A stretch of 45,122 nucleotides of DNA, from IMG/VR virus record IMGVR_UViG_3300025083_000071, positions 1-45,122 of that record; one strand, 5' to 3'. The stretch comes from a virus. Numbering within the stretch: the first letter of the stretch is position 1; each line of letters opens with the position of its first letter. Below the pieces are notes generated by a model. That model had not been told where the DNA came from, did not search any database, and saw only the letters and a list, made by a program, of their open reading frames with translations. Both the position numbers and the translations under genes were made by a program. Shown here piece by piece: positions 11,001-31,213 of the stretch.

Positions 11001-11638
11001 TTGTAGCAGTAGATCGTAACCAAGGTTCTAAATGGTTGAATAACTCTACGAGATACGTTGATCAGATATATACTGCCCTTAGTGGTGCAGAGTTAGCACC
11101 TGAAAAGTTTAATGCACTGACTGATGCTAGAGGTACAGCACCTATAGGACGTATCTTTGGTTATCGTGAGAACCCCGGACAGACTCATATACAAAAGATG
11201 TTTAACCAAATAGGTAAACCTCAATGGCGTACTGAGATTAAGTCGTTCATACCTGAGACACAGAATCATATTAACAAGATAGTGTTTCATTTCTTAGAAC
11301 AACAAGCTGAATATGCCTTAGCTACCCCTGCTTGGAAGAATGGTAATAACAAACAACGTAAACAACTCTTAGGTGAGGTGCTTAGGAAGGCTAAGAAAAG
11401 AACAACAGATTTACTTGAGGGTAGCCTAGCACCTGAAGATAGCCGTACTAATAAGTTGTACAAGATAAGTAAGAAGGGTAGTGGTGTAACTAAAGAAGAC
11501 GTAGATAAAGCGTTAACAAAGTTAGACATAGACGTAGACATAACAGAGCTAGACGAGAATCAACTAGACTTCTTAATGACTTACTTAGAGTTACAAAAAG
11601 ACGAAGTTAAAAAGCTTAAGATGTTAGGCACTAGATAA
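8093..11638 (+). CDS. Large internal virion (ejection) protein, 1181 aa
   Basis: This is the largest gene in the window, close in size to T7 gp16 (1318 aa). It is mostly helical with hydrophobic segments around residues 170-200 and 290-320, and Ala/Lys-rich regions in the first third. The N-terminus holds a tandem copy of the peptide SSRF(T/I)DVDLGLEL. Unlike T7 gp16 it has no lysozyme domain; that activity is on the 312-residue protein upstream. As last gene of the rightward block it ends 34 bp before the convergent leftward block, at a shared terminator. The role is inferred from size and context. Confidence 0.65.
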   Translation: MNEFTSSRFTDVDLGLELPVMEEDKKQTSSRFIDVDLGLELEVEPVSQTIQALQPTSSAETINDLMQDNNYAVVGNYMKQRFGMTEDTHGRQEVIDSFVNHMRKFNFGQSVTTGTELAYLNKAEEANKLAAGQAYQLFDNMKGAFSEEYSFAQKADAVGDYARALIVDPVNVLSLGFGKLITGGATKVAANLAKDAVIKQVKKELTKKGIKNVSSKTAQAQAQQIERRIIGKIIKGEKVRGVAKGAFAEGVKKSTKKEILATTAFDSASAVTIDAVYQKALQQGGVQTDYNVVQGAVTGIGGVFGGSLAYGLSLLNKAPHTEESLPLAMSFFDGAAVAEANAKKLASTTTLKSNKATLKNINAKALQKSLNKSATASERWAKKVLKGDALRRQNGINVEPRTDEWLAAFLHGSKDGKFKGIKTILEDFNIELVNEGDKFANFTDFLTENIKILPKDAKTEVAKLYKNTMANVPEFNTTLNKGLNVLSSKASEWGREGQTLSKLSQDLKLANRFAPDKTASQKLNTVVNTTLDPTPKTIRDKIVDGTSSMQQNLIRMLITHPGTTALNVVGWANATSMQSVTDILRGALYGGRSVAEMAIGRNTNATEFANKSKLMFTLQKQKAMNLVNPFATQQSALDFLAANPKAQKELFRYMSGGIELDDVYKQIGIQIGDIGKPSTAEKVMDFAQTMYGVKAQDMYTKTQEFMYALDKQVRIKYGKTYSEFLEDPDLYKVMKGDTYAEIQTIAVQDALRNVYAKPFGKNPKGLLSFGAKVIEDMRKYPIVGAMIPFGQFFNNTLGHMFDHTGISLVHKYAAGTTRDPLDLLTKSAIGLSLIGVTTAREYDNMEEGLAWFEERRDDGSIRNRMYDFPFSFYKAMGRMGAHFYRDGEVPEDLVKELVTLFGPGQLTRQLGDSAKISFDLLVDASSGEDRAVRDALGKLVQDTASMYLSGYSRPFDPVNTAIALGRGENFVAVDRNQGSKWLNNSTRYVDQIYTALSGAELAPEKFNALTDARGTAPIGRIFGYRENPGQTHIQKMFNQIGKPQWRTEIKSFIPETQNHINKIVFHFLEQQAEYALATPAWKNGNNKQRKQLLGEVLRKAKKRTTDLLEGSLAPEDSRTNKLYKISKKGSGVTKEDVDKALTKLDIDVDITELDENQLDFLMTYLELQKDEVKKLKMLGTR
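8108..8215 (+). repeat. Tandem 39-bp direct repeat in coding sequence
   Basis: Copies at 8108-8146 and 8177-8215 differ by one base (CTGAC versus TTGAC) and encode SSRFTDVDLGLEL and SSRFIDVDLGLEL. They are in frame, 69 bp apart, at the extreme N-terminus of the 1181-residue virion protein. This may be a duplicated short docking or sorting motif. Confidence 0.85.
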
Positions 11639-11645
11639 AAGAAAA

Positions 11646-11669
11646 GGGCGACACAAGCCGCCCCTTCTA
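11646..11669. terminator. Bidirectional terminator between convergent blocks
   Basis: GGGCG (11646-11650) pairs with CGCCC (11659-11663) across an 8-nt loop. A-rich sequence precedes the stem and T-rich sequence (TTCTATTCTTATTT) follows it, so it can act from both sides. It is the only gap between the rightward virion block and the leftward replication block, as expected for a shared intrinsic terminator. Confidence 0.65.
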
Positions 11670-11672
11670 TTC

Positions 11673-11876
11673 TTATTTAACTCCGTGCCTCTCAGCACAT
11701 TGCCTAGCCCACAGATACATACTCGTGTATGCCTTTAGACAGTGATCTCTTTCAGTGCTCTCCCATAGATTGTCACGTAGTAACACCTCCATACTCTCCA
11801 TATGATCAGTCATCACGTTCAGGAATGCTGTTCGTCTTGACTTGATGTGTTCTTGTGCTTCTTGTTCTAGTTTCAC
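11673..11876 (-). CDS. Small helical protein, weakly like Acb2/Tad1 hairpin
   Basis: The 67-residue product (GTG start) is two helices. The second half, STERDHCLKAYTSMYLWARQ followed by CAERHG, has the Ser-x-Glu-Arg ... Leu ... (M/L)-W-A pattern I associate with the short helical hairpin of Acb2/Tad1-type cyclic-nucleotide sponges, anti-defence proteins of phages. The match rests on a few residues. It is the last gene of the leftward operon, ending at the shared terminator. It is otherwise an unrecognised small phage protein. Confidence 0.55.
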   Translation of the reverse strand: MKLEQEAQEHIKSRRTAFLNVMTDHMESMEVLLRDNLWESTERDHCLKAYTSMYLWARQCAERHGVK

Positions 11877-11887
11877 AGGCTTTCTCT

Positions 11888-12367
11888 CTAGGTTACTGCA
11901 TCTTCTAATGCACTTATTGGTAGGTTATAACAGTTAGACTTTACAGTAAAGTTGTTGCTAGGATCTACATCACCCTTTTTCAAGTAAGTAGCATCCTTAT
12001 AGTATGCACTCTTAGGATACACACCTAAGAACCACGCAGTATGTAAGTCTTTATGTACACGTACAAATGCATAATAGTCACACTTCTGTTTCGTATTAAG
12101 TTCAGCTACTGAACACTCATAGTAACGCTTGGGTGGTACAGTAGTTCGTTTAGTCTTTACATCAACGGTGTAACCATTGTCTAACTTAAGGTCGTAGTCG
12201 TATGTATTCTCTTCACTACCACCCATTATAAGACGAGCAACTTCTTCACCTAAGAAGCCAGCGATACTACCCTGACCTCCTGTGATACTATTGTTTAGTC
12301 TGCCCATCTCAGTAGCCTTAGCACGAGCTTTATTAACCATTTCTTTGGATACGGTTATCTCTTTCAT
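11888..12367 (-). CDS. PD-(D/E)XK nuclease-like protein
   Basis: The 159-residue protein has the layout of a restriction-endonuclease fold. GFLGEEVARLIMGG is a candidate first helix with Glu, then YDYDLKLDNGYTVDVKTKRT supplies an Asp followed by a D-x-K core (DVK) at about residues 68-76. This is followed by strands and a helix. Such small nucleases in T7-like phages help degrade host DNA or process recombination intermediates. Its start overlaps the upstream stop by 4 nt. The substrate is unknown. Confidence 0.65.
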   Translation of the reverse strand: MKEITVSKEMVNKARAKATEMGRLNNSITGGQGSIAGFLGEEVARLIMGGSEENTYDYDLKLDNGYTVDVKTKRTTVPPKRYYECSVAELNTKQKCDYYAFVRVHKDLHTAWFLGVYPKSAYYKDATYLKKGDVDPSNNFTVKSNCYNLPISALEDAVT

Positions 12368-12810: not shown

Positions 12811-13033
12811 TTAGGTATTCCTTTAGTTCTGTATAGCCCCCAAGATGAGTGCCATCTGGTTTAAATATTTGTGGTACTGTAGTATAACCTGCTTTCTTCA
12901 TTAACGCCAGTAACCATTTGCTACTAGGCGATTGTACGTTGTATGTTGTTACCTGACTTCCTGCAACACCTCGTAGTAATTGTAACGAGGCATCACAGAA
13001 GTTACATTCGTTTCTAGTTATTACTATCCACAT
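12785..13033 (-). CDS. Glutaredoxin
   Basis: The 82-residue thioredoxin-fold protein has the redox motif C-N-F-C at residues 10-13 (ITRNECNFCDASLQ), a TVPQIF cis-proline block and a GG motif (HLGGYTEL), all typical of glutaredoxins. It is directly downstream of and touching the ribonucleotide reductase gene (shared base 13033), so it most likely re-reduces the reductase's C-terminal cysteine pair. It starts at ATG. Confidence 0.85.
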   Translation of the reverse strand: MWIVITRNECNFCDASLQLLRGVAGSQVTTYNVQSPSSKWLLALMKKAGYTTVPQIFKPDGTHLGGYTELKEYLSDSSKKAI

Positions 13034-14940
13034 TAAACGAGATCTACAATCTCGCAGCTGTCACCACTACATGCTAGTGTCTGACTTCCTGCTGTGTTGT
13101 CTTCTTGTTCATACTCAGATAGTTTATCCCAATCAATAGATGAAGGCATAGAACCTAGTAACTCTAGGTATGTTTTCTCGTTGACATCTTGGTAAGGTGC
13201 TTGTTGGTATGTGTGTTCGTTGAATGGTAAGAATGATACACCTGACATCTCATCGAAATGTTTATACACAAATGCACCTACCTCAAACCACTCGTTATTC
13301 TTTACGTTAATAGTAACAGATGGTTTATGTTCACACCATGATCGTTGATAAGCTAACCACATCTCTAGTTGTTCTATAGCAGTCATGTCAGCAGTAACTG
13401 TTGCACCTTGTGGAGCTTTCATAGGGAAGCTAAACACAGTAGTCTGGTCAGGCTTCATTACGTCTGGCTCATTAGGTATACCTTGATCCATCATGAACTG
13501 TGTCAACGGGTCTTTGTTGTCTCCACGTACAGTGCGAATATAATAGGCTGAGTGACGAGCGTGTATGCCACTGCTAGAGTCAACCAGTTGGCTGACAGTA
13601 CCGCTTGGTTTAACACAGCTGATAGCAGTACTGACAGGGATATCAAGGCGTTCAGCCCACTTAGCATTAGTAGCAACGGCGATTTGTTTGAGGTGTTCAA
13701 GAGTTTTCTCCAGTCCTTTGTTAGCTTTTGTGGTTAATGGGTTGTCCATGATACCTGTCATAGATACACCAAGTAATCTTTCTTCTTCAGTATTGTTCTG
13801 CCATGACTTACGTAAGTATGGGAACTTAGTGAATGATGATTGTATTGTACCTAAGATAGTAGCTATACGTACCTTACGTTCTAAGTCTTCTGTACTATCA
13901 GTAGCTCTTACAACTACCTCTGTTAGATTGCAGAACTGGTTCGGGCGTAGGATTATCTCACTGCAAGGATTCGTCCCGAACTCATAGTTAGGGTCACGTC
14001 TTCCATTCTTAGATGCTTGTTTCTTAGATGCTTGTCTGTTGAAGATACCACGTTCACCTGAGCCTGACTCAACTAACGCCATCCACTCACGCATGAAAGA
14101 TAAACTGTCAGGCTTCTCAGTGTATGACACAGAGTTATTAGCTAAGGCACGTTGAGGATCATTGTCCCACCATGAGCCTGACTTAGCGTGACGCATTCTA
14201 TCGTCTGATAAATTACTCAATGAAATCATAGCACTACGGCGTACTCCACCTACGACTACTACCTCACCTATCTTACACATGATGTCATGACATTCTAGTG
14301 ATGATAGCTTACGTCCTTTAGCATCTTTAAATGTCTTGATAACAAAGTTGAATAGATCAATCAGAGGCATTGGGCCTGATGCTCTACCACCAAATGTCTT
14401 TAGCTTTGCACCTGCAGGTCGTACCTTAGACACATCCCATCTTGGTATCTCACCACTATAAAGCAATGCAATCATTTGACGTAGTGACTTAGCCCAACCT
14501 TCTTTACTATCTTTAACTACGATAGTTGTTTCACTTTCATACAAAAGCTCAGGTACTTCTGGTAGCTTAGTAACTGACTGACGTTCAACAGAGAAGCCAA
14601 CACCAGTACCACACAGTAGAATAAACATAGCTTCATCAAATGCTTTAACATCATCTACGGCTAAGTATGAACAGTTATAACCTGCTGTATTGTCACGAGC
14701 TAAAGCAGGGCCGGCAGTCATCAAGGCTCTCATAGAAGGCATAACTTCTAGTCCTAATATAGCCTGTTCAATCTCAGCTATCTGTTTAGGGTTATCACCT
14801 AATGCTGGTCGTACTAAGTTCTTCATGTAGCGATCTACTGTTTCACTCCATGTCTCCCTACGGCCTTCATCATCAAGCCAACGAGCGTAACGTGACTTGT
14901 GTATGAATGATTGATAGTCTGTTGGTAGTGTGTTGCTCAT
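13033..14940 (-). CDS. nrdJ: Class II (adenosylcobalamin-dependent) ribonucleotide reductase
   Basis: It converts ribonucleotides to deoxyribonucleotides with a B12-derived radical, so phage DNA synthesis would depend on host cobalamin but not on oxygen. At 635 residues it has the single-chain class II size. Visible are an early redox Cys (YNCSYL, about residue 90), the glycyl-rich LLCGTGVGFSV block, and the thiyl-radical site NPCSEI (Cys ~326 with Asn ~324 and Glu ~328) followed by a second Cys in FCNLTE (~337). A C-terminal shuttle pair, CSGDSC, ends the protein. No NrdB-type subunit gene is present. It is flanked by MazG-like and glutaredoxin genes with 4-nt and 1-nt overlaps. GGAGACAACAG precedes the ATG. 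Confidence 0.9.
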   Translation of the reverse strand: MSNTLPTDYQSFIHKSRYARWLDDEGRRETWSETVDRYMKNLVRPALGDNPKQIAEIEQAILGLEVMPSMRALMTAGPALARDNTAGYNCSYLAVDDVKAFDEAMFILLCGTGVGFSVERQSVTKLPEVPELLYESETTIVVKDSKEGWAKSLRQMIALLYSGEIPRWDVSKVRPAGAKLKTFGGRASGPMPLIDLFNFVIKTFKDAKGRKLSSLECHDIMCKIGEVVVVGGVRRSAMISLSNLSDDRMRHAKSGSWWDNDPQRALANNSVSYTEKPDSLSFMREWMALVESGSGERGIFNRQASKKQASKNGRRDPNYEFGTNPCSEIILRPNQFCNLTEVVVRATDSTEDLERKVRIATILGTIQSSFTKFPYLRKSWQNNTEEERLLGVSMTGIMDNPLTTKANKGLEKTLEHLKQIAVATNAKWAERLDIPVSTAISCVKPSGTVSQLVDSSSGIHARHSAYYIRTVRGDNKDPLTQFMMDQGIPNEPDVMKPDQTTVFSFPMKAPQGATVTADMTAIEQLEMWLAYQRSWCEHKPSVTINVKNNEWFEVGAFVYKHFDEMSGVSFLPFNEHTYQQAPYQDVNEKTYLELLGSMPSSIDWDKLSEYEQEDNTAGSQTLACSGDSCEIVDLV

Positions 14941-21915: not shown

Positions 21916-22699
21916 TTATCATCTCCTTTAATCTATCTTGATCTGTGTCTAACTTATATTTTATATCGTCGTCAAGCCTCAATGCCTTAACTGTTTTACC
22001 TGTCCACGCCTCTACTTCTCTCTTGTATGATAGCGTCTTCGACATAGCATCGGGGTCTAACCCTATGATAACCTTATAGAAATCTGCTATGTGTTCCATT
22101 TGAGCTAGGCCTAATGACGTACCTAAGATAGCTACGCCTGTAGTGTTAGGTGAAATCTGAGCCACAGCTATTGCACTGATCACATCTTCTACTACCACAC
22201 ATACACCATTGGGTGTACCTAATACACGTTTGTATACTGATGCGTTACCTGTGTATCTGTACCACTTAGGTATAGCACCATCTAAGGCACGGCCTACTGC
22301 ATCTACTACTACACCTTTGTCAACTATAGGAAAGACTGCACGTCTGTCTTTAACGTCATACAACATGTCCTCATTGGTAAGATCCCAACGCTTAGAAAAT
22401 TTATGTAGTAGTGTGTGCTCCGCTGTAGGATTAACGATATACTCAGGGTACACCATAGGCTCTAACTCTTTACGTATAGGCATGTCTCTGTTCTGCATAT
22501 GGTTACGTACCTCCAGAGCAGTCATGCCTGTAGTAACTGCACCACGCACACCACACCCTAGCTTATAGCAGTTGTACACCACCATGCCTCCTTCCTTAGA
22601 TGCAGTGAAGGTGTTGTTACCATGACAGTTAGGGCAAGACAAACGTGTAGTCTCACCCTCACCTAGACATAGCCCGTCTACAAAGTCTTTTAAATTCAT
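21893..22699 (-). CDS. DNA primase (zinc ribbon plus TOPRIM-like)
   Basis: The 268-residue protein starts with a zinc ribbon (CPNC at 22-25, then CYKLGC at 44-49), followed by a TOPRIM-like region. That region has VCVVVEDVISAIAVA for the conserved Glu and VIIGLDPDAM for the D-x-D. It should make RNA primers for the adjacent helicase and polymerase. In T7 this is the N-terminal half of gp4; here it is a separate gene upstream of, and overlapping, the helicase. It overlaps the integrase stop by 4 nt. Confidence 0.85.
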   Translation of the reverse strand: MNLKDFVDGLCLGEGETTRLSCPNCHGNNTFTASKEGGMVVYNCYKLGCGVRGAVTTGMTALEVRNHMQNRDMPIRKELEPMVYPEYIVNPTAEHTLLHKFSKRWDLTNEDMLYDVKDRRAVFPIVDKGVVVDAVGRALDGAIPKWYRYTGNASVYKRVLGTPNGVCVVVEDVISAIAVAQISPNTTGVAILGTSLGLAQMEHIADFYKVIIGLDPDAMSKTLSYKREVEAWTGKTVKALRLDDDIKYKLDTDQDRLKEMINDGTRTH

Positions 22700-23604
22700 T
22701 TGTCTCCATTCCTTTTACTTAGTGCATTGCTTGCGCCCTTGAGTGTGTTGACTAGATAAGGCTTAACACTCTGCGGATTACTGTGTCCACTGACTTGCAT
22801 GATACCTAGTGTATCTACACCTGCCTCAACCATCTCGGTTATACCTGTCCTACGTAAGTCTAATGCAGTTAATTCTTTAGATAGTTTAGCTTCCTCTTTA
22901 ACTTCATTTACTAACCTGTGTATATCCGTTGAATGATACGCTGTATAGACACCATTATAAGGCTCAGGGCGAGGTGCTACGTAAGGTTGGAAGCCGAAGT
23001 CAGTCTCTTGTTGTATTAGCATACTACATAGTGTGTCACTGATAGGTAGATGCACATCAGCCCTACGTTTACTTTGCTCTAAGTCTAAGCGTTTCTCTTT
23101 TAAGTCAAGGTTGTTCCATGTAAGTAGGCGCATGTCACCTACACGTTGCGCCCACTCGTATGCCATGTGTACGATCAGACCAATGCTACGCCATTCCCAG
23201 TTACTGTAAGCTGTATTTAAGAAAGATGTCACTTCATCTTGAGTCCATTTAACTTTACGTCTCTTCTCCTTAGTACGTTGAAGTAAGGATACAGGATTAC
23301 TAAGCAAAGCCTCGTGTCGTATCGCTGTATTGAATACGATACCTAGACACGTAGCTATGTAGTTAGCCTGACGTACACCCTTACTCTCCAACCAAGTATC
23401 ATAACCTAATGTTATATGTTTAAACTTTAGATCTTTTAGTTTGATATTACCTATAGCTTTATTGTTTTGCACCTTGGTAGCGCAAGCATGACGCAGATTT
23501 AAATCATAGTCATACTTGCTACGCTGACTTAAAGCAGAATACTTAGGTGTTCGCATGTAGTATTCACACGCATACTCAATAGTATTACTGGGTTTAAGTT
23601 CCAT
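22696..23604 (-). CDS. Tyrosine recombinase (integrase), unusual box II
   Basis: The 302-residue protein has an N-terminal SAM-like arm-binding region (YDYDLNLRHACATKV) and a catalytic domain. That domain has Arg 154 (AQRVGDMRLLTW), Lys 179 (QSKRRADVHLPI), Arg 251 (ALDLRRTG), His 274 (VSGHSNPQSV) and the nucleophile Tyr 283. The box II His of the usual H-x-x-R is Leu 248. It suggests temperate ability or co-option for another recombination step. No excisionase or obvious repressor is next to it and I could not place an attP site. AAAGGAG precedes the ATG. Confidence 0.85.
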   Translation of the reverse strand: MELKPSNTIEYACEYYMRTPKYSALSQRSKYDYDLNLRHACATKVQNNKAIGNIKLKDLKFKHITLGYDTWLESKGVRQANYIATCLGIVFNTAIRHEALLSNPVSLLQRTKEKRRKVKWTQDEVTSFLNTAYSNWEWRSIGLIVHMAYEWAQRVGDMRLLTWNNLDLKEKRLDLEQSKRRADVHLPISDTLCSMLIQQETDFGFQPYVAPRPEPYNGVYTAYHSTDIHRLVNEVKEEAKLSKELTALDLRRTGITEMVEAGVDTLGIMQVSGHSNPQSVKPYLVNTLKGASNALSKRNGDK

Positions 23605-24597: not shown

Positions 24598-24840
24598 TTA
24601 ATACTCCTCTTGTACTAAGTCGTCTAGTTCTACGTCATTCTCACAGCTACCAAAGTCTAGCTTGGGTGCAGTGTAAAACATTATGCCTCCGTCAGGCCTC
24701 TCAACTGGGTTGCCATTGTCATCATGTACTGTGAACAGTACGTCCCACAATCTTATATCAGTAAAACCTTCTGGTATGCTAGGCTCATACCATACAAACT
24801 TACCGTTCTCATCTAGGTCGGGTACTCTATCTCCACTCAT
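24598..24840 (-). CDS. Hypothetical acidic protein (80 aa)
   Basis: It begins MSGDRVPDLDENGKFVWYEP and is rich in Asp/Glu and Pro with short strands; a DDNGNPVERPDGG turn region stands out. The acidic C-terminus (ENDVELDDLVQEEY) and low pI recall nucleic-acid mimics, but there is no direct support. Its start overlaps the Mom-like gene by 4 nt (ATGA), so the two are co-translated. Confidence 0.65.
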   Translation of the reverse strand: MSGDRVPDLDENGKFVWYEPSIPEGFTDIRLWDVLFTVHDDNGNPVERPDGGIMFYTAPKLDFGSCENDVELDDLVQEEY

Positions 24841-25469
24841 TGTATAATCTCCTTCTTTGGATATGATTCAGTGCCATAACGTAGGCACTTAGTTAGTAAT
24901 CTTTTGTCTTTCTTGTTGCCATGCATGTACACATAGCGATGCTTAGCTGATCTGTAAACACGCTTAGTCCTGTCACCTGCATGATGCCTAGGGTGCTTGC
25001 CGTTCACAGTAGCTATGTCAGTGCGAGGCTTGGTTGCACCAGTGTATAACCAATTAGTTGCTTGGTATACGTAGCCTACATGATCGTGTGCTGTATCAGC
25101 ATAGCTTACCAATACCTTAGGCTTAGGTAGTAATGCAATAGATCTAGCTACAAGTAAGCTTGCCTCGTTAGGTCTGTTGTTTACTAGCACTACTCTGTTG
25201 AGTTCAAGTACCTTAGACTTGTGTTCTTCACCACACACACCCTTGCACAACCAAGGCGAAGCAGGTGAACCGAATGTACATATACCTTGTAGACCATCTG
25301 TACCTCGATACAAACCGAAGGCATACGATACGGAAGGCATACGTCTGGCGTAGTGTACGTTGAGTATGAGATCCTTTGTGTCTTCGTATGCTATAGGTAT
25401 CACGAAATAATTGTGACTGTAGTGCATGTTATCTGGGCCAACTCCATGTAGCTTAATCAAGTTGCTCAC
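24837..25469 (-). CDS. Mom-like DNA adenine modification protein
   Basis: The 210-residue protein shows the block pattern I associate with phage Mu Mom and its relatives. These are GNAT-like enzymes that convert adenine in DNA to a methylcarbamoyl form and protect phage DNA from restriction. Seen here are FGLYRGTDGLQGICTFGSP, LELNRVVLVNNRPNEASLLV, a PKVLVSYADTAHDHVGYVYQ block and ATNWLYTGAT. The C-terminal ~50 residues are very basic (HRYVYMHGNKKDKRLLTK), fitting a DNA-binding tail. It overlaps its upstream neighbour by 17 nt. No companion Com-like regulator was identified. Confidence 0.65.
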   Translation of the reverse strand: MSNLIKLHGVGPDNMHYSHNYFVIPIAYEDTKDLILNVHYARRMPSVSYAFGLYRGTDGLQGICTFGSPASPWLCKGVCGEEHKSKVLELNRVVLVNNRPNEASLLVARSIALLPKPKVLVSYADTAHDHVGYVYQATNWLYTGATKPRTDIATVNGKHPRHHAGDRTKRVYRSAKHRYVYMHGNKKDKRLLTKCLRYGTESYPKKEIIQ

Positions 25470-27374: not shown

Positions 27375-27396
27375 GTCGTCGGACGATCCGACAACG
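27375..27396 (-). promoter_or_regulatory. Palindromic operator, copy 1
   Basis: On the minus strand CGTTGTCGGA-TC-GTCCGACGAC forms a near-perfect inverted repeat (core GTCGGA/TCCGAC). It lies 21 nt upstream of the ATG at 27353 and just before the shared leader AACAATGGAGA. Identical to copies 2, 3 and 4 over 22 nt. Confidence 0.85.
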
Positions 27397-27793: not shown

Positions 27794-27928
27794 CTATTCT
27801 CCTTTAGGTAAATATTCACTGATTGCATAGTGAGGTAGATATTTCAGCAACTCATAGAGTGCTGTGTAATCATCAAACTTTATATCTTCTTTGATTTGAT
27901 CCAACACTTTAATTCTTTGTGTGTGCAT
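27794..27928 (-). CDS. Small helical protein (44 aa) with duplicated leader
   Basis: I start it at ATG 27928 (MHTQRIKVLDQIKEDIKFDD); a longer frame reads back through the zinc-ribbon gene and is unlikely. Its ribosome-binding leader is a 29-bp copy of its own codons ~7-16: the same sequence occurs once upstream of the ATG and once inside the gene. It is helical with a Tyr/Leu-rich second half. Function unknown. Confidence 0.55.
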   Translation of the reverse strand: MHTQRIKVLDQIKEDIKFDDYTALYELLKYLPHYAISEYLPKGE

Positions 27929-27956
27929 TATATCTTCTTTGATTTGATCCAACACT
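27880..27956. repeat. Perfect 29-bp direct repeat spanning a leader and its gene
   Basis: Copies at 27880-27908 (coding) and 27928-27956 (leader) are identical and offset by 48 bp. The leader copy begins at the start codon, covers the whole gap to the upstream gene and ends inside its stop codon. Confidence 0.9.
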
Positions 27957-28152
27957 ATTCTTCTCCTATTTCTTTTAAGTAATGGTACAGGTAGTACTCC
28001 GGTATCTCTACCGTTGTACTCCTGTAGTCGCACTCCAAACATCTGCGGCTTCGTCGCCTCGTTAGAATGCTATTCCTAGTTAAGTGTTCTCGTGTCTCGT
28101 ACACCTTCATCTTCTTGATGCACGTAGGACACACTTCTACTACGTGTTCCAT
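27955..28152 (-). CDS. NrdR-like zinc ribbon without ATP-cone
   Basis: The ~65-residue protein (MEHVVEVCPTCIKKMKVYET) has CPTC and CLEC cysteine pairs with VYETRE between them and LTRRRSRRCLECDYRSTTVE around the second pair. This closely follows the N-terminal DNA-binding ribbon of NrdR, where V-x-(D/E)-(S/T)-R and R-R-R-R-x-C-x-x-C-x-x-R-(F)-T-T-x-E are diagnostic. NrdR represses ribonucleotide reductase genes through an ATP-cone that is missing here. The phage carries its own nrdJ. ATG 28152 is 1 nt after the upstream stop; an upstream TTG is less likely. Confidence 0.6.
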   Translation of the reverse strand: MEHVVEVCPTCIKKMKVYETREHLTRNSILTRRRSRRCLECDYRSTTVEIPEYYLYHYLKEIGEE

Positions 28153-28153
28153 A

Positions 28154-28498
28154 CTAGAAGTTACCAAACTCTATGTTTCTAGCTACAACCCTACCATCAT
28201 TCTTAATGTGACCGTTGCTTATGTCTATGATGTAGTGTCCGTTGTCCCACTCTTCTTTGTACTTCTCCATAGCAGGACGTACACCTACAGACAGACCACC
28301 TTCCACCTTGCTACAGATGTGAGCTATCAGTCTGGCTGTAGCATAGCTAACATCAGACTTACGCATTTTAGATGATGCACCTCTTACGAGTTGTGTCACA
28401 GTGTTGGGGCTACCATTCCAGTGTAGGTATATGTAGCACTCTGACTCCTTGCCTGTGTAGTTGTCGCTTATTACTTCAAGTGTTGCTCTGTTTCCCAT
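28154..28498 (-). CDS. Hypothetical protein (114 aa)
   Basis: It begins MGNRATLEVISDNYTGKESE, a beta-rich start, then YIYLHWNGSP, a helix containing the only cysteine of the C-terminal half (ARLIAHICSKVEGG), and strands at the end (HYIIDISNGHIKNDGRVVAR). The pattern suggests a compact alpha/beta enzyme or binding domain, but I cannot name it. It shares one base with the operator-linked gene upstream. Confidence 0.65.
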   Translation of the reverse strand: MGNRATLEVISDNYTGKESECYIYLHWNGSPNTVTQLVRGASSKMRKSDVSYATARLIAHICSKVEGGLSVGVRPAMEKYKEEWDNGHYIIDISNGHIKNDGRVVARNIEFGNF

Positions 28499-28761
28499 TA
28501 GTTATCTCCTCTATATCCTGCAGGTAAAGTTGGATCTAAGTGATCCTTGATGATAGTCTCCATGTCCTCGATAGCTTTGTCTATCTCGGTACGCTTGTAC
28601 TTCACGCCACTAATCTGTGAAGCTTTAGACATTAGTTTAGTCTTAGTCAGATGACGTGCCGGCTTGAGGCCAATACGTATCATCTTAAGTGCCGCTTTGA
28701 GGAACACGGCTTGCACCTCATCACGTCCCGGATCTTCTATTGTAAAGTGTGTGTCTTTCAT
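28498..28761 (-). CDS. Hypothetical basic helical protein (87 aa), operator-linked
   Basis: The product has an acidic N-terminus (MKDTHFTIEDPGRDEVQAVF) and a basic helical middle (GLKPARHLTKTKLMSKASQI). Its leader contains the palindrome at 28787-28808 and the shared AACAATAGGAGATTAA element immediately before the ATG. It may bind nucleic acid. No family recognised. Confidence 0.65.
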   Translation of the reverse strand: MKDTHFTIEDPGRDEVQAVFLKAALKMIRIGLKPARHLTKTKLMSKASQISGVKYKRTEIDKAIEDMETIIKDHLDPTLPAGYRGDN

Positions 28762-28786: not shown

Positions 28787-28808
28787 GTCGTCGGACGATC
28801 CGACAACG
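28787..28808 (-). promoter_or_regulatory. Palindromic operator, copy 2
   Basis: The same 22-nt palindrome as copy 1, 25 nt upstream of the ATG at 28761. Upstream on the minus strand is TAGTATAACTAAT, a possible -10 region. Confidence 0.85.
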
Positions 28809-29311: not shown

Positions 29312-29504
29312 TAGTCTCCGTTGTTAGTGTCGTCGGACGATCCGACAACGATTTAATATTTGTCCTACTATCAAGGCCGATCCCATCTCGTTTGTCAATG
29401 GATCTGGTTCTATTCATCGACAACATCTGCCTATGCCATGTGCTACGCCATCGCTTGTCGCCACGTCTGGCTAGTCGGTCACGTTTTGACACCCCATACG
29501 TCAT
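29301..29504 (-). CDS. Small basic protein (67 aa) spanning operator copy 3
   Basis: It starts at ATG 29504, overlapping the upstream TGA by 4 nt, with AAGGA ahead of it. The product is very Arg-rich (KRDRLARRGDKRWRSTWHRQ), as in nucleic-acid-binding peptides. Its 3' end runs through the palindrome at 29329-29350 and overlaps the start of the next gene. The operator would therefore lie inside coding sequence, unlike the other four copies, which makes the gene less certain. Confidence 0.45.
   Translation of the reverse strand: MTYGVSKRDRLARRGDKRWRSTWHRQMLSMNRTRSIDKRDGIGLDSRTNIKSLSDRPTTLTTETNDE
29329..29350 (-). promoter_or_regulatory. Palindromic operator, copy 3
   Basis: The same 22-nt palindrome as copies 1 and 2, 17 nt upstream of ATG 29311 and followed by ACTAACAACGGAGA. 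Confidence 0.85.
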
Positions 29505-29832: not shown

Positions 29833-29854
29833 GTCGTCGGACGATCCGACAACG
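29833..29854 (-). promoter_or_regulatory. Palindromic operator, copy 4
   Basis: The same 22-nt palindrome, 29 nt upstream of ATG 29803. It lies just after the terminator of the first leftward gene, so transcripts of the following genes could start here. Confidence 0.85.
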
Positions 29855-30644: not shown

Positions 30645-30666
30645 GTGGTCGGATCGTCCGACAACG
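30645..30666 (-). promoter_or_regulatory. Palindromic operator, copy 5 (variant, inverted centre)
   Basis: CGTTGTCGGA and TCCGAC arms are kept, but the centre reads CGA where the other four read TCG on the same strand, and the right flank is CAC rather than GAC. It is the only copy not directly attached to a ribosome-binding leader. Confidence 0.75.
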
Positions 30667-31184: not shown

Positions 31185-31213
31185 TTGACACCATATTTAG
31201 AGTAGTATATAAT
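31185..31213 (+). promoter_or_regulatory. Rightward consensus sigma70 promoter P2
   Basis: TTGACA (31185-31190), exactly 17 nt, TATAAT (31208-31213): a perfect consensus in both hexamers. Transcription would start near 31220, giving a leader of ~190 nt before the first rightward ATG at 31410. A strong host-RNA-polymerase promoter for the rightward block. Confidence 0.8.

Follow-up and report, generated by a model that had tools for sequence, protein, structure and literature searches.

Bacteria couple dNTP levels to the expression of ribonucleotide reductase (RNR) through NrdR, a widespread switch that senses dATP as its ligand. What, then, might a phage do with a protein that has the DNA-binding ribbon of this switch and no part with which to sense the nucleotide? 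The question is raised by the virus record of a marine phage, 45,122 bases long (the window, by which we mean the whole stretch of DNA analysed), whose minus strand encodes, at 27955..28152 including the stop codon, a 65-aa stand-alone NrdR-type zinc-ribbon protein recognized by PF22811, TIGR00244 and PDB profile matches.

The layout of the window resembles that of HMO-2011-type podoviruses (PMC9038755), with a PolA that contains an internal CxxCxGxG-like zinc segment, a helicase, MazG, RNR and glutaredoxin. The polymerase DNA of the window is closest to that of Roseobacter phage CRP-207 (75.6% over 936 bases), and we infer the host of the phage from related phages only. Since a tyrosine integrase gene is present (22696-23604, minus strand; PF00589), the phage may be temperate. 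A Mom-family DNA adenine modification gene lies at 24837-25469 on the minus strand (PF25680, 116 bits).

The ribbon gene and its family

The ORF that the initial annotation had placed at 27955-28152 is present on the minus strand, where it starts at an ATG at 28152, one base past the stop of the upstream gene, and its own stop codon ends at 27955; the plus strand over the same positions is interrupted by stops. The upstream gene (114 aa; 28154..28498, minus strand), which has a weak phrog_31860 match, is itself preceded by an 87-aa gene (28498..28761, minus strand), the first of an apparent ribbon-containing unit. The protein, MEHVVEVCPTCIKKMKVYETREHLTRNSILTRRRSRRCLECDYRSTTVEIPEYYLYHYLKEIGEE, contains exactly the stretch T-R-R-R-S-R-R-C-L-E-C-D-Y-R-S-T-T-V-E to which attention had been drawn. 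The ribbon ORF is kept in the six closest contigs at protein identities of 97-100%, and dN/dS is 0.03-0.07 in the window clade (two informative pairs, with only 8-9 differences each) and mostly ~0.1-0.4 among CRP-type ribbon sequences. Judged by these ratios, the ribbon gene is under purifying selection. Two further observations concern its 3′ end: a 29-base tandem-like duplication (window 27880-27956) spans this end and the next ORF, and relatives such as L013 have a ribbon protein with an extra terminal K and a different downstream sequence.

Taken singly, the window protein matches PF22811 (Zn_ribbon_NrdR) with an E-value of 2.9e-5 and 24.3 bits, below the curated Pfam cut-off of 27.2 bits, and the NCBIfam NrdR model TIGR00244 with an E-value of 5.7e-5. 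Because one short sequence alone is weak evidence, relatives were gathered; four phage relatives score 33-43 bits against PF22811, above the cut-off, and the top PDB matches of a 4-member phage profile are E. coli NrdR chains (E 2e-4). The AlphaFold2 model (mean pLDDT 81.7) consists of a three-strand ribbon and a C-terminal helix. Its best nine Foldseek matches in the PDB are all NrdR chains, with TM scores of 0.50-0.53 by query length and E-values of 6e-3 to 5e-2, which are in themselves weak for a 47-residue domain. Cellular NrdR aligns in hhalign with an E-value of 2e-13, and among cellular sequences the relatives examined are NrdRs of full length; in PHROGs there are weak matches to families without assigned function. 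The proposed assignment to the NrdR family is supported by profiles, model and relatives. The profile scores of the relatives, the PDB and Foldseek matches, the cellular relatives and dN/dS together indicate that the gene is genuine and that its ribbon is of the NrdR type, and by profile and model the protein belongs with the NrdR zinc-ribbon domain.

In Streptomyces coelicolor NrdR, the DNA backbone is touched by arginines 12, 26-29 and 37 and the bases are read by D15 and R17; the R17A mutant loses binding, and D15A binds strongly but loosely (PMC9110341). The zinc-ribbon core of the window protein (residues 8-49; 28006..28131, minus strand), delimited by the PF22811 match and alignments, carries its zinc-ligand cysteines as two CxxC knuckles, C8-C11 and C38-C41, which are invariant in 16 phage sequences. 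E19 and R21 stand at the positions of D15 and R17, and the phosphate-contact positions are occupied by K16, by R33 R34 S35 R36 R37 and by R44. The DNA-binding hallmarks claimed for the protein are therefore kept in part: the cysteines, the R17 equivalent and most contact residues are retained, but D15 is replaced by E19, and a serine interrupts the RRRR stretch to give RRRSRR. An E-T-R at the base-reading site also occurs in a full-length Burkholderiaceae NrdR (L076) and in L071. NrdR molecules also pair through their zinc ribbons, which hold together the dimer that is the smallest NrdR unit (PMC9110341, PMC12051234).

The nucleotide-sensing ATP-cone is missing, as had been supposed. Only 16 residues follow the ribbon in the ORF, the TIGR00244 match is confined to profile positions 3-54 of 147, and a scan of the whole 45,122-nt window found no encoded ATP-cone. 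Where NrdR has the cone, the AlphaFold2 model places a helix (residues 52-62; 27967..27999, minus strand). Set beside NrdR (TIGR00244; 7P37, 7P3F, 9FVR, 9GEX), the protein thus shares the zinc-ribbon fold by model, the two knuckles, the [DE][ST]R base-reading motif, the arginine run and a TT-x-E motif. On the other hand, it differs in its lack of the cone, in its length (65 aa against 140-220), in a longer loop, in the serine within the arginine run and in its short C-terminal helix. Because the ATP-cone was sought and is absent, we do not file the protein as NrdR.

Stand-alone ribbons in other phages

Searches with diverged members found stand-alone ribbons in well over ten phage groups, and the set of relatives comprises ~40 further contigs besides the six near-identical ones and CRP-901/902. 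These groups are the window clade, the CRP-901/902-like phages, RcZahn, cyanophages S-CRES1/2, ctuI7215, ctLwi270 and a PurZ-cluster podovirus group, together with the groups of L064, L065, L145/L147, L146/L149, L150, L151, L152/L157, L153 and L154. One candidate, L128, was dropped from the set as a different zinc protein. Across phages the proteins measure ~60-140 aa, with tails of ~10 to ~95 residues past the ribbon, none of which appears ATP-cone-like by inspection. In comparisons between groups, which rest on ~42 residues, [DE][ST]R and the arginine run are kept in most stand-alone phage ribbons; [DE][ST]R is missing in the PurZ group, L145, L153 and L016, and the R17 equivalent is Y in the PurZ group, F in L145 and K in L016. 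With this residue lost in some lineages, the classical box would therefore not be readable by all stand-alone ribbons. A search of plasmids for stand-alone ribbons returned none, and where phage records contain a full-length NrdR, it is mostly on fragments that lack annotation or look bacterial and is probably host DNA. Our literature search for phage NrdR ribbons found no paper describing such proteins; in a DJR-virus paper one gene is labelled NrdR in a legend, and the passages found in that paper do not describe it.

Cultured carriers include CRP-901/902, RcZahn and S-CRES2. The ribbons of Roseobacter phages CRP-901 (OQ401623.1 678-872; L009) and CRP-902 (OQ401624.1 607-801; L008), both unannotated, resemble that of the window in layout, length, absence of the ATP-cone and sequence (39-41% identity), but they keep D-S-R and KRRRKC, their phages lack RNR, and in CRP-902 the ribbon is followed by a TrmB-like-annotated gene. 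Gp96 of Rhodobacter phage RcZahn, annotated as Ogr/Delta-like, is likewise a stand-alone ribbon, with E-S-R and RRRKC; it differs in that its gene overlaps ThyX, in a genome without RNR. The ctuI7215 ribbon (L106) has an NrdR-like sequence and a C-x4-C second knuckle as in Ogr, and by this mixture of features it is a possible bridge between the NrdR-ribbon and Ogr families.

The initial annotation presented the ribbon as part of a phage that carries RNR. The window does encode a class II (B12-type) RNR (13033..14940, minus strand; PF02867, 47.8 bits; PF21995, 41.1 bits), and RNR is also present in the close relative G004 and in S-CRES2. The implied link, however, is not general. Many ribbon-bearing records are fragments; among complete or large ones, no RNR was matched in the complete phages CRP-901, CRP-902, RcZahn and ctuI7215, in ctLwi270 or in any PurZ-group record tested, and CRP-207, conversely, has RNR and no ribbon. 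Since ribbon phages without RNR exist and CRP-207 has RNR only, co-occurrence of the two is not a rule, and a general link of the ribbon to the phage's own RNR was rejected on this pattern of presence and absence.

In some other lineages, genes of nucleotide metabolism adjoin the ribbon. The PurZ family is present in 9/9 PurZ-group records tested, and in the members examined the gene order is PolA, PurZ, a MazZ-like gene, HD-domain DatZ and ribbon, the ribbon ATG overlapping the stop of DatZ (dATP triphosphohydrolase). These clusters would be expected to make 2-aminoadenine DNA. A ribbon gene also overlaps ThyX in two lineages, in opposite orders: the overlap is at the 3′ end of ThyX in RcZahn (L104, 4100-5207) and at the 3′ end of the ribbon in L065 (83-1077). 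Because the ribbon overlaps dNTP-enzyme genes in three separate lineages, gene order points to a possible role in dNTP supply. In other lineages the ribbon stands beside a DNA polymerase or 5′-3′ exonuclease gene, and in still others its neighbours are unrelated (terL/portal, NusG-like, helicase). The PurZ-cluster records are L056, L057, L132 and related contigs (G023, G024, G030-G036), and a histone-deacetylase-like gene was observed after their ribbon.

Candidate DNA targets

A scan for NrdR boxes found no excess over shuffles in the window, CRP-902, CRP-207, most of RcZahn, the S-CRES2 region, the PurZ contigs and others; the scan used a literature consensus and simple scoring with no positive control, so weak boxes may be missed, and its cellular loci contain nrdR without verified RNR promoters. 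Upstream of the phage RNR there is no NrdR-box pair above chance. The one placed hit is a weak NrdR-box-like site, ACACCATATTTAGAGT, at 31188-31203 (p = 0.028 against intergenic shuffles, uncorrected). It falls within the −35/spacer segment of a sigma-70 promoter of perfect consensus (TTGACA-17-TATAAT; 31185..31213, plus strand) in a divergent intergenic region. The 120 bases around this promoter are identical at 120/120 positions in two relatives that average ~95-96% there. ACACCATATTTAGAGT is a possible phage target of the ribbon.

The window also contains a palindrome, GTCGGA-N3-TCCGAC, in five perfect copies between 27.3 and 30.7 kb (27378-27392, 28790-28804, 29332-29346, 29836-29850 and 30648-30662; expected number in shuffles 0.00). 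The copy GTCGGACGATCCGAC (28790..28804, no strand assigned) lies immediately upstream of the ribbon-containing unit. Four of the five stand immediately upstream of leftward genes (27368, 28761, 29311 and 29803), where they would form leader hairpins of 9-11 bp, and the palindrome is also found in close relatives. It is absent from CRP-207 and from the other ribbon phages tested, CRP-901/902 among them; it is G+C-rich, unlike NrdR boxes, and is tied to the ribbon by position only. The five copies may serve as operators or form hairpins in mRNA leaders.

Possible roles in infected cells

The reading that we tentatively prefer, at somewhat less than even confidence, is that the ribbon protein binds DNA without sensing nucleotides and interferes with the NrdR control of the host, so that it may be a small tool with which the phage overrides or imitates that control. 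Judging from sequence and model, the ribbon would fold as a zinc ribbon and would probably pair through NrdR's ribbon-ribbon face, and such a pair would bind NrdR-box-like palindromes whatever the dATP/ATP state; with no cones, a pair of boxes would not be needed. If made early in infection, the ribbon would occupy host NrdR boxes or form mixed pairs with host NrdR, and the host's dATP-controlled repression of its nrd genes would be disturbed while the phage raises dNTP demand. Mixed ribbon-NrdR pairs might block not only the repressing tetramer but also the ATP-loaded dodecamer. Because the phages tested lack clear NrdR boxes of their own, we favour a target in the host. Both routes, box occupation and poisoning of host NrdR, fit the kept DNA-reading residues, ribbon pairing and the dNTP-gene overlaps elsewhere. 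Of the two outcomes for host nrd genes, derepression would be more likely than repression, on the sole ground that phages need dNTPs. Several findings count against interference with host NrdR: in the window the ribbon and RNR are ~13 kb apart and no neighbour of the ribbon has a known function, the single sequence falls below the PF22811 cut-off, and a serine within the arginine run accompanies the changed D15. Furthermore, the phage already owns an RNR and would therefore have less need for host nrd genes.

The same ribbon could instead have been reused, with its own or a shifted specificity, to regulate transcription of the phage itself, acting for example at the sigma-70 promoter site or at another early-region operator. 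We regard this as doubtful but a serious possibility, since the ribbon gene is one of the small leftward genes near a divergent control region that contains the five palindromes and the perfect promoter with its box-like site and its fully conserved surroundings. The genes that follow the ribbon, one with a weak MarR match in L038 and the TrmB-like-annotated one in CRP-902, point the same way, and the lineages without R17 require another target in any case. Against such a regulator stand the composition of the palindrome and its restriction to close relatives, the failure of box-like sites to exceed shuffles in most phage sequences, and the DatZ and ThyX overlaps, which suggest nucleotide metabolism. 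These overlaps, together with the altered specificity residues of several lineages, would also suit a ribbon that no longer binds DNA and acts instead as an adaptor to protein or RNA, attached perhaps to host NrdR or a nucleotide enzyme; we consider this unlikely, as the arginines and base-reading residues conserved in most lineages would be needless for a pure adaptor. It is more improbable still that the protein acts like P2 Ogr/P4 Delta, as a late transcription activator, or like Mu Com, as a translational activator of mom. The annotation of the RcZahn homologue, a weak Ogr_Delta similarity in relatives and the ctuI7215 knuckle lean towards the former. P2 Ogr and P4 Delta are indeed small phage zinc proteins with alignable CPxC, TSR and T-x-E positions, but they have a C-x4-C second knuckle, no arginine run and a much weaker profile match. 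With hhalign, P2 Ogr reaches an E-value of 2.7e-4 at a probability of 42%, so that the similarity to NrdR is stronger by nine orders of magnitude; the window protein has no Pfam Ogr_Delta match (PF04606) and its second knuckle is CxxC, and membership of that family was rejected. Com is a 62-aa zinc-type protein of a phage with a Mom gene, and Mom genes occur in the window and in CRP-902 (11533-12129, annotated only as hypothetical). Only 18 residues align with Com, however, at a probability of 12%, and Mom is not a constant companion of the ribbon, the complete CRP-901 having a ribbon and no Mom; membership with Com was rejected likewise.

Returning to interference with host NrdR, a broader form of it can be put forward, in which a nucleotide-blind mini-NrdR serves many unrelated phages to seize or bypass host RNR and dNTP control, and in which the version of the PurZ clusters, with their expected 2-aminoadenine, has been adapted and is co-translated with a dATP-destroying enzyme. 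We hold this wider proposal to be conceivable rather than probable. The coupling of DatZ and ribbon in PurZ phages raises the question of how NrdR is handled in infected cells once dATP has been removed, and the ribbon family is small, cloneable and suited to existing NrdR binding assays. If the reading is true, a phage protein with only the DNA-binding half of NrdR, of which we found no report, would give viruses a direct grip on the RNR switch.
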